Positions 9,327 to 64,000 of a DNA stretch of 64,000 nt are shown here, piece by piece; the stretch's first letter is position 1, and every line of letters starts with the position of its first letter. Source of the DNA: Anadara kagoshimensis (Eukaryota; Mollusca; Bivalvia; Arcoida; Arcidae); NCBI GenBank assembly GCA_021292105.1, contig CM037874.1, positions 58,320,539 to 58,384,538 on the forward strand. The letters are read 5' to 3'. A program made the position numbers and the translations under genes. Below the pieces are notes generated by a model, which was not told the origin of the DNA, made no database searches, and worked only from the letters and a program-made list of their open reading frames with translations.

Positions 9327-9433
9327 ATGGCGAGCAAGTCGAATGTTGAAACAGTTCGTGGGCAGGATTTCACTGTTGGGCCTCGATATACAAATTTAAC
9401 ATACATTGGGGAAGGTGCATATGGCATGGTTGT
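9327..9433 (+). CDS. MAPK1: ERK exon 1
   Basis: The ATG lies in a good context (ttcaacATGG) and the exon encodes residues 1-35 plus two bases of Val36, including the glycine-rich loop. The donor is gtaagt. The start was chosen because it gives the short N-terminus [15 protein letters not shown] expected before the ERK core. Confidence 0.93.
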
Positions 9434-62900: not shown

Positions 62901-64000
62901 ATTACATTTGTCTTCTTATTTCAATGCACAGTGAAACTTGAGTAAACCAAATGAACTTACATTAATACCATTTAGAAGAAAAACCTGTGTATAATGTAAC
63001 CCTTTTTTCCGAGCAAGATGTTAAATGAATTAAATTTTTAAAATAAAAAAAAAAACCACAATTTTATAGAATGGATAATTCTGTTTGTTTTTCAACATTA
63101 AGCATTATAATAAAATCTAAGCACATGTATATTTTTTTTACCTCCCAGTTTTCAAAGAAATAAGGGGTATTAAATTGAACTTTCATCCTTCCTCCTTTTA
63201 TCAAGACATTTCTTGTCCGGAGTAATTCTCAAAAACTATGATGTACTAGTACTTTCCTAAAAAAAGACTTTGTGCAAAGCATCATTCAATGTTGATAGGA
63301 GATGCACATATCATTTACCGAAGTTGGTATACTCATTTTGCTGGGAATTATGACTCTTTAAACATTAAAGAGAAAATCACAAAAAGTACTACGGTAACTG
63401 GTGGGGGATCCTAATTCATCGAGTTTGCTCGCTTAGTTTAAATTCTTGGGAAGCAGGGTCAATGAATACAAAAATTGGAACGTCAAATACTGATTCATTG
63501 TGATTCAAAATTATCTGAATTATCTGTCCAATTAAGATTATTATCCGTATCTCATGATAGTAGTTTGTTTTTATTTAAAACTGTTTAACTGTTTTTTATA
63601 TCGCAGCTTCAAGATTTGATGTTTTAACACATAAAACCCCATCACTACCTGAAGAGACTGGACCAAGTACAGCCAAGAGGCCCAGAATGTCCTCTTTAGT
63701 ACCAGATGAACCGCCCAAACTCCAGCAGGACCCAGCACCATTTCTAAGGTTTGTGTAATATACAAGGCTTTACCAGCTTTGATAAGGTCAAGGTACAGAA
63801 CATACCAGCACTTTAGAAAATGGTCAAACAGACCTGCACCATGTGTGAACACTTTATCTGTGTTTTAATCCCTGGTAGCCACAATTGTCATTGGCTACTA
63901 ATTTCTTAAGAAATTCTTCAAACAATTGATTATTAAAACTACTTTAAAAAGACTATATTTTTAGTTTTCACAAATTTTGGAAAAAAGGCTTCTATGATTG
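53812..64000 (+). CDS. KIF22: KIF22 (kinesin-10, Kid) motor domain, 3' end off the window
   Basis: A chromokinesin that moves along spindle microtubules and pushes chromosome arms toward the metaphase plate. The model joins 53812-53954, 56640-56767, 57141-57295, 57679-57824, 58794-58967, 61550-61625, 62148-62192, 62735-62879 and 63607-63748 (384 residues, continuing). It starts [16 protein letters not shown]. Motifs: ATP-binding GPTGAGKT 86-93, SYLEIYNEK, switch [10 protein letters not shown] 199-207, switch [10 protein letters not shown] 231-238, and the KIF22-like [20 protein letters not shown], then [13 protein letters not shown], and [14 protein letters not shown]. The last exon has KRPRMSS, a likely nuclear signal. 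Coiled coil and helix-hairpin-helix DNA-binding parts would lie beyond position 64000. All junctions keep frame with GT-AG borders. Confidence 0.93.
54119..54367. mobile_element. CAGGGG/CCCCTG element with exact 6-bp target duplication
   Basis: Ends CAGGGGTTCAAAATT and AATTTTGAACCCCTG are perfect 15-bp inverted repeats. The six bases ttcaaa flank both sides (54113-54118 and 54368-54373). Non-coding. Confidence 0.85.
56196..56406. repeat. Two TTTA tetranucleotide arrays
   Basis: About 16 copies each at 56196-56260 and 56339-56406, separated by about 79 bp of unique sequence. A reverse-sense AAAT run lies at 56021-56045. Confidence 0.95.
56640..56767 (+). CDS. KIF22: KIF22 exon 2
   Basis: It encodes [20 protein letters not shown] to AYGPTGA and one base of Gly91. 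Acceptor tttatag, donor gtgaga. Confidence 0.94.
57141..57295 (+). CDS. KIF22: KIF22 exon 3
   Basis: It encodes [20 protein letters not shown] to SYLEIYNEK and ends in phase 0 with donor gtaaca. It completes the P-loop. Confidence 0.95.
57415..57545 (-). mobile_element. Truncated SINE in KIF22 intron 3 (minus strand)
   Basis: Contains caaaggacccagcgacattc, atttctaaatgctgag and a reversed B-box/A-box region ending accaattgagtt. It matches the head half of the 31647 SINE. Confidence 0.55.
57679..57824 (+). CDS. KIF22: KIF22 exon 4
   Basis: It encodes [20 protein letters not shown] to HFGPASNN and two bases of Arg191. Acceptor tcaaacag, donor gtatgt. Confidence 0.94.
57838..58105 (+). mobile_element. 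Dispersed repeat (taccccccacaaac start) in KIF22 intron 4
   Basis: It begins taccccccacaaactagttt, has stacked gtctgtctgt, then catatctcgtagctgcttt, ccttgaaccaaggtcatatc and ends tgttgggggggatatttggc. The layout suggests a dispersed element; only this copy is seen here. Confidence 0.45.
58794..58967 (+). CDS. KIF22: KIF22 exon 5
   Basis: It encodes [20 protein letters not shown] through [18 protein letters not shown], holding switch I and switch II. Acceptor gtgtttag, donor gtaaca. Confidence 0.96.
58968..61549 (+). other. KIF22 intron 5
   Basis: Filled by pieces of the ggtttcca family (about 59105-59205), a CAGTG element copy (59205-59365), the 1540-bp CAGGGC element (59521-61060), a CT microsatellite (about 61179-61222) and another CAGTG-family fragment (61225-61335). 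Confidence 0.8.
59521..61060. mobile_element. CAGGGC-type inverted-repeat element with 6-bp target duplication, long copy
   Basis: Ends CAGGGCTCAAATTAG and ATTTTGAGCCCTG match the 11741 element, and ccactc flanks it exactly (59515-59520 and 61061-61066). Both ends carry short repeats (gggagaag on the left, gggcgaag on the right). The interior has T-rich runs and no transposase. Confidence 0.82.
61550..61625 (+). CDS. KIF22: KIF22 exon 6
   Basis: It encodes [20 protein letters not shown] and INMGL in phase 0. Acceptor tttttcag, donor gtaagc. Confidence 0.95.
61626..62147 (+). other. KIF22 intron 6
   Basis: A CT microsatellite lies at about 61920-61960. No other feature is seen. Confidence 0.7.
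62148..62192 (+). CDS. KIF22: KIF22 exon 7 (45 nt)
   Basis: It encodes [15 protein letters not shown], a kinesin signature block, in phase 0. Acceptor ctttcag, donor gtaaca. Confidence 0.95.
62193..62734 (+). other. KIF22 intron 7
   Basis: A degenerate SINE-like stretch at about 62338-62590 begins tttggtagagtgctctcatt. Nothing else is recognised. Confidence 0.6.
62735..62879 (+). CDS. KIF22: KIF22 exon 8
   Basis: It encodes [20 protein letters not shown] through [20 protein letters not shown], the end of the motor core. Acceptor tttttcag, donor gtaaaa. Confidence 0.94.
62880..63606 (+). other. KIF22 intron 8
   Basis: Positions 63135-63430 are a copy of the repeat family also seen in ERK intron 5 (about 27560-27800), sharing ggggtattaaattgaac, aagacatttcttgtccg and attctcaaaaactatg. 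Confidence 0.65.
63607..63748 (+). CDS. KIF22: KIF22 exon 9 (neck/tail start)
   Basis: It encodes [40 protein letters not shown] and DPAPFL plus two bases. The basic KRPRMS resembles the KIF22 nuclear localisation signal region. The donor is gtttgt, weak but in frame; the gene continues off the window. Confidence 0.85.
63870..64000 (+). mobile_element. Repeat of the ggtttcca/ctggtagcca family
   Basis: It has ctggtagccacaattgtcat and ttggctactaatttcttaag, matching 59105-59205 and, in reverse, 21530-21712. It runs off the window. Confidence 0.5.

Follow-up and report, generated by a model that had tools for sequence, protein, structure and literature searches.

Gene content of the window

The window analysed here is the whole 64,000-nucleotide stretch C18:58320539-58384538, near 58.32-58.38 Mb of a contig of 60.6 Mb that represents 5.4% of the analysed assembly (1.115 Gb in 36 contigs). 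Three neighbouring genes were found in the order ERK1/2 (+), PAGR1 (-) and KIF22 (+), the last of them crossing the window end, with a total span of ~58 kb. The original prediction, which had placed these same genes on the same strands within 55 kb, is confirmed in this regard, although the trio is slightly wider. All gene models were built from the genomic sequence alone, and in the analysed flanks (60 kb upstream and 200 kb downstream) only open frames were scanned, so that genes may be missed. Neither the window nor the fetched flanks contain any N. An ORF scan of the gap from ERK to PAGR1 revealed no further recognisable gene, three ORFs from this gap lacked a Pfam match, and an Rfam scan of the window returned zero matches at gathering scores.

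The ERK gene (9327..35202, +) was delineated through a ten-exon splice model, tblastn and PDB matches. Its ATG at 9327 (+) coincides with the start given in the original prediction, and its exons, all joined at GT-AG sites, yield a splice-consistent model with an unbroken core of 348 aa that keeps the TEY loop. Pieces of this protein are 50-92% identical to human MAPK1 by tblastn, and the best PDB relatives of a 371-aa reading are MAPK1 (690 bits) and then MAPK3 (670 bits), a closeness expected where one gene relates to both. On its TEY loop, and with MAPK1/3 as the closest among solved kinases, the predicted gene is ERK1/2, one gene with MAPK1 and MAPK3 as its two human relatives. When exon 10 is read straight through, a stop is reached at 35202 (371 aa) after ~24 final residues that are unlike ERK, and a possible splice donor lies inside the exon at 35128. 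A further short 3′ exon was looked for and none was convincing; the 3′ end of the model is uncertain, and it may lack a short terminal exon.

Motif inspection of the nine ERK introns revealed three in which a complete U12-type donor, GTATCCTT, is combined with a branch motif TCCTTAAC located 18-22 bases upstream of the acceptor; they were classed following the U12 consensus. They correspond to intron 3 (17624..24736, +; branch at -18), intron 5 (27027..27948, +; branch at -22) and intron 6 (28021..31311, +; branch at -21). Such signals were absent from the other six ERK introns and from the seven modelled KIF22 introns, and the donor GTATCCTT occurs 8 times across 324 kb when both strands are counted. 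Judging from these motifs, a single MAP kinase gene likely harbours three minor-spliceosome introns. Minisatellite arrays with units of 32, 40 and 75 bases were also observed at 3054-4766, 13275-14368 and 28360-29042, respectively, the last two within ERK introns.

PAGR1 (PAXIP1-associated) comprises two coding exon regions at 49488..52100 (-), detected with Pfam PF15364 and a genome search. One region matches PF15364 (PAXIP1_C) with E=1.1e-11 and 45.4 bits against a cut-off of 27, and the other stays under that cut-off (E=9.4e-4, 19.8 bits). Genome-wide, the domain has one match, which is this same locus; with a PAXIP1_C domain exceeding the curated cut-off, the predicted gene is PAGR1. In the exon at 51782-52141 (-), the SEDWCV motif at ~52053, which human PAGR1 also has, is out of frame with the rest of the domain, and a TGTGTG run is found between both parts; the frame change may correspond to a sequence error, a polymorphism or an unrecognised splice.

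KIF22 (53812..64000, +, with a continuation outside the window that reaches 67.5 kb or more) shows eight motor exons at 53812-62879 with consistent splice sites, which encode a motor of 337 aa. The best PDB match of this motor is KIF22 itself (6nje, 410.7 bits), followed at some distance by the next solved kinesin (219.4 bits). With KIF22 as the closest of the solved kinesins, the predicted gene is KIF22 (kinesin-10). Moreover, an exon past the window end (67400-67522 in window coordinates) is 51% identical to residues 591-631 of human KIF22, in the C-terminal part that may correspond to the helix-hairpin-helix. The 125 kinesin matches of the genome, used as a control for linkage to C18, are distributed over 17 contigs, and seven of them map to C18, three being KIF22 itself.

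PAGR1 and KIF22 are divergent, and CpG-rich bins at 52501..53000 (observed/expected ratios of 1.28 and 0.95, compared with 0.53 for the window) sit between their start regions. These bins are a candidate shared promoter, albeit a weak one because two other nearby bins are equally CpG-rich (1.37 at 53751-54000 and 1.79 at 54751-55000). If true, a shared promoter would favour retention of the trio.

Flanking genes

Downstream of the window (coordinates continued from it) lie CHCHD2/10 (74.1-75.9 kb, -), a gene with LRR and EF-hand motifs (~187-192 kb, +), SBDS (203-208 kb, -), a diverged clathrin-heavy-chain-like gene (215-236 kb, +), IFT20 (242.8-249.2 kb, -) and a KCTD10/KCTD13/TNFAIP1 gene (254.4-261.5 kb, +), the latter 190 kb after the window end. 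The KCTD protein scores 159 bits with BACURD3 (KCTD10) and 152 bits with BACURD1 (KCTD13), and the next family falls to 70 bits. IFT20 and this KCTD13/TNFAIP1-family gene form a divergent pair ~175 kb beyond KIF22. In humans, IFT20 and TNFAIP1 at 17q11.2 have a bidirectional promoter in common, as described in the consulted portion of PMC2822537. Both pairs are divergent, and no other gene of a known family was recognised between the two genes here. Unlike the human pair, however, the first coding exons are here ~5 kb or more apart, and between them lie a transposon-like frame and a tandem duplication in which the first exon of IFT20 is repeated. The duplication (~2.57 kb, at ~245.3-249.2 kb) carries a reverse-transcriptase-like frame recognised by eye, and the repeated IFT20 exon has an identical translation.

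Other candidate links of these flanks with human regions were discarded. A single match to DUF525, the domain of the POLDIP2/FBXO3 family, at 52.19 Mb of C18 was considered as a POLDIP2 beside the KCTD gene and dropped, as it lies 6.4 Mb from that gene and DUF525 is also found in FBXO3. The clathrin-like gene, 151-172 kb downstream of the window, was rejected as the counterpart of CLTCL1 from 22q11.2, with 29-37% identity to human clathrin; two scanned ORFs of this gene were without a Pfam match. The LRR and EF-hand gene was not accepted as LRRC74B and was kept as a putative LRRC74-like gene. LRRC74B is listed as a 22q11.2 gene in the part of PMC4487986 consulted. Intronless Mab-21-like frames of the nucleotidyltransferase family were noticed as well, one at 2-1465 (-) of the window by Pfam and two more upstream by eye, and the upstream flank also carries transposon-like frames.

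Chromosome-scale linkage of 16p11.2 families

The human 16p11.2 BP4-BP5 CNV interval contains 27 unique protein-coding genes in about 600 kb, among them MAPK3, PAGR1, KIF22, KCTD13, MVP, CDIPT, PPP4C, TAOK2, ALDOA and CORO1A (PMC11211608, as far as its available text goes). Eleven families out of these 27 genes were examined: the trio, KCTD through the flank scan, and seven families (MVP, YPEL, aldolase, PPP4C, coronin, TAOK and CDIPT) through genome-wide searches. Orthology was taken from best or most identical exon matches, several of them to human query sequences, and is presumed for several of the C18 matches.

A C18 match was taken as the orthologue for 10 of the 11 families, namely ERK, PAGR1, KIF22, BACURD/KCTD13, MVP, CDIPT, PPP4C, TAOK, coronin and aldolase, and in five of the seven families searched genome-wide the best or sole match was on this contig. 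MVP maps to 59.29 Mb (-) with four of seven Vault matches, the strongest included, and the remaining three MVP-like matches form a further copy, located on C9. All three CDIPT matches are at 52.93 Mb. PPP4C was located at 49.35 Mb, where six exons, among 43 matches, are 78-95% identical. For TAOK, with 121 matches, the top raw score was a long single frame on C6 of 42% identity, and the C18 locus at 41.47 Mb was taken as the orthologue because its seven exons reach 58-81%. The only coronin match falls at 14.30 Mb; animals possess several coronins, and this match may represent any of them. Finally, all 20 aldolase matches are at 11.43 and 22.09 Mb of C18. The original prediction had proposed looking for MVP, TAOK2, ALDOA and PPP4C among the neighbours of the trio, and all four families did match on C18, spread over 11-59 Mb. 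The exception was YPEL, whose genome-wide matches are on C9, C2 and C10 (two on the latter) and none on C18. Human YPEL3 pairs with MAPK3 and YPEL1 with MAPK1, but the YPEL expected beside ERK from these pairs was not found on C18.

Two control families behaved differently: 49 of 50 enolase matches are on C14 and 21 of 22 PGI matches on C19, the remaining one of each being on C22 and none on C18. Leaving the trio aside, seven of eight families are on C18, an outcome with a chance of 1.1e-8 if every family had one randomly placed locus, or 8.6e-5 with four each; this speaks strongly for an ancestral linkage group.

Gene order and clustering

Along C18, the loci are found at 11.4/22.1 (aldolase), 14.3 (coronin), 41.5 (TAOK), 49.3 (PPP4C), 52.9 (CDIPT), 58.33-58.39 (trio), 58.58 (KCTD) and 59.29 Mb (MVP). 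Five of the ten are thus inside 0.96 Mb, while aldolase and coronin are 36-47 Mb distant from the trio. In 2,000,000 trials of ten loci placed evenly at random, with aldolase counted once, five loci fell within 0.96 Mb in 132 cases, and a 58-kb stretch held three loci in 629. These counts rose to 56,600 and 15,689 when positions were compressed to a fifth of the chromosome, and to 488,103 and 59,475 when compressed to a tenth. When the trio was fixed beforehand, at least two of the seven remaining loci lay within 0.95 Mb in 37,032 of 2,000,000 trials. Runs with seven and nine loci gave smaller counts and were superseded by the ten-locus run. A clustering excess exists, and it is significant only if genes are fairly evenly spread along C18; moreover, the trio had been chosen for its closeness.

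The local order is ERK(+), PAGR1(-), KIF22(+), KCTD(+), MVP(-). For comparison, a published table of the human interval was used, whose order is taken as that of the chromosome. It gives KIF22, PAGR1, MVP, KCTD13 and MAPK3, so that, in this table, the members of the trio share an interval with other genes in between, whereas here they are adjacent (PMC11211608, table).

A probable ancestral linkage group

The best reading of these data is a conserved ancestral linkage group, given that 10 of 11 families are on C18, that both controls are absent from it and that IFT20, a gene of human 17q11.2, is present in the flank. Points against it are the YPEL matches outside C18, the MVP-like copy on C9, the top TAOK raw score on C6, the single coronin match and the 36-47 Mb that separate aldolase and coronin from the trio. 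We are highly confident that C18 keeps much of a linkage group of the bilaterian ancestor, and from this comparison with one invertebrate genome the 16p11.2 linkage shared with humans probably predates vertebrates; we infer that it was inherited from that ancestor rather than regained. C18 would then retain much of one such group, from which the human 16p11.2 interval would also descend. Sister regions of 16p11.2 on other human chromosomes would share that descent. Genes of the group would stay on one chromosome because exchange between chromosomes is rare, inversions would reshuffle their order inside it (both as proposed in the main text of PMC7269912), and ERK-PAGR1-KIF22 would be a local cluster within the group.

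This picture fits a known phenomenon, chromosome-scale linkage, here extended to the 16p11.2 interval. Simakov et al. (2020, PMC7269912, main text) defined 17 linkage groups and described them as intact between amphioxus and scallop, with a largely scrambled internal order. As in those chordate and bilaterian groups (PMC7269912), vertebrate-linked genes are found here on one invertebrate chromosome in scrambled order, and a text search of the main text of that work gave no ‘16p11’, ‘chromosome 16’ or ‘MAPK’. A search among open-licence papers found no published description of MAPK3-PAGR1-KIF22 linkage in invertebrates, and the consulted portion of PMC3202601 holds nothing on it. Compared with the human BP4-BP5 interval as given in the available text of PMC11211608, the same ten genes or families are linked, but instead of ~600 kb they occupy ~48 Mb of a single chromosome here, the trio taking up 58 kb of it, with an altered order and no YPEL match on C18, 11 of the 27 genes having been compared.

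The original prediction had gone further and regarded the three genes as an ancestral block older than the vertebrate arrangement. Its chromosomal part is upheld by the 10 of 11 families on C18 and the absence of the controls, whereas an inherited packing of the three genes is not, with an order unlike the human one and an excess that depends on gene spread. Nested in the linkage-group explanation, two readings of this packing can be put forward. The first, which we consider somewhat probable, is a chance re-meeting of the trio inside a conserved chromosome, the linkage being ancestral and the adjacency not. It agrees with the non-human order, with the scatter of other members over 11-59 Mb and with the scrambling within groups reported as general in the main text of PMC7269912, but has to face a clustering above the even-placement expectation and the fact that KCTD and MVP turned up nearby after the trio had been named.

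The second reading, possible though doubtful in our opinion, is that ERK, PAGR1 and KIF22, together with BACURD/KCTD13 and perhaps MVP nearby, have been neighbours since the bilaterian ancestor, their separation having been resisted by interleaved regulation or by a divergent promoter used in common, and that it was the human genes that changed places inside 16p11.2. Human KIF22 and PAGR1 are not divergent neighbours, which argues against it. The rare even-placement clusters (132 for five loci and 629 for three in 2,000,000) speak in its favour, as do the CpG-rich bins between divergent PAGR1 and KIF22 and the IFT20-KCTD pair ~175 kb past KIF22, divergent like human IFT20-TNFAIP1 in the portion of PMC2822537 consulted. 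Those clusters become frequent, however, under tenfold compression (488,103 and 59,475), the trio was picked for its closeness and, once given, has two or more others nearby in 37,032 trials, and bins just as CpG-rich occur at 53751-54000 and 54751-55000. Bolder, and rather unlikely, is the proposal that the trio and the IFT20-KCTD pair are a relic of a single pre-vertebrate neighbourhood, copied by the vertebrate genome duplications into what are now, in humans, 16p11.2 and portions of 17q11.2 and 22q11.2, with a closeness held by shared regulation that includes a PAGR1-KIF22 divergent promoter. Finally, an assembly artefact joining the three genes is very improbable: near-identical duplicate loci, some inverted and perhaps unpurged haplotypes, are many on the same contigs, but PAGR1 has one genome match, no N occurs in the window or flanks, splice sites are consistent in the models of ERK and KIF22, and a local misjoin would not put other 16p11.2 families on C18.

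The human 16p11.2 region is linked to autism. The shared linkage suggests, as judged from 11 of the 27 genes, that a clinically important CNV interval goes back for the most part to one ancient linkage group, and offers a test bed for whether 16p11.2 genes were already co-regulated before vertebrates. If only the chromosome-scale linkage is conserved, their grouping would reflect inertia, with no need of a functional explanation.

Other observations in the genome

Near-identical gene pairs on the same contig, some of them inverted, were observed on C5, C7, C8, C15, C17, C18 and C19, with examples such as PGI on C19 at 60.08 Mb (-) and 60.67 Mb (+) or the aldolase pairs on C18 at 11.43 and 22.09 Mb; they may be unpurged haplotypes or recent duplications. 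The matches to enolase (394 bits) at C22:236725-237651 and to PGI at C22:381506-382555 are long and uninterrupted, whereas the copies on other contigs are divided into exons, and from these frames C22 may be a contig of a bacterial contaminant or symbiont. Several near-identical enolase genes are arrayed in ~240 kb at C14:35247220-35485936, and intronless kinase-like frames, nearly identical to one another, are densely arrayed over C2:37368792-37476873 with a spacing of ~1.8 kb in places.
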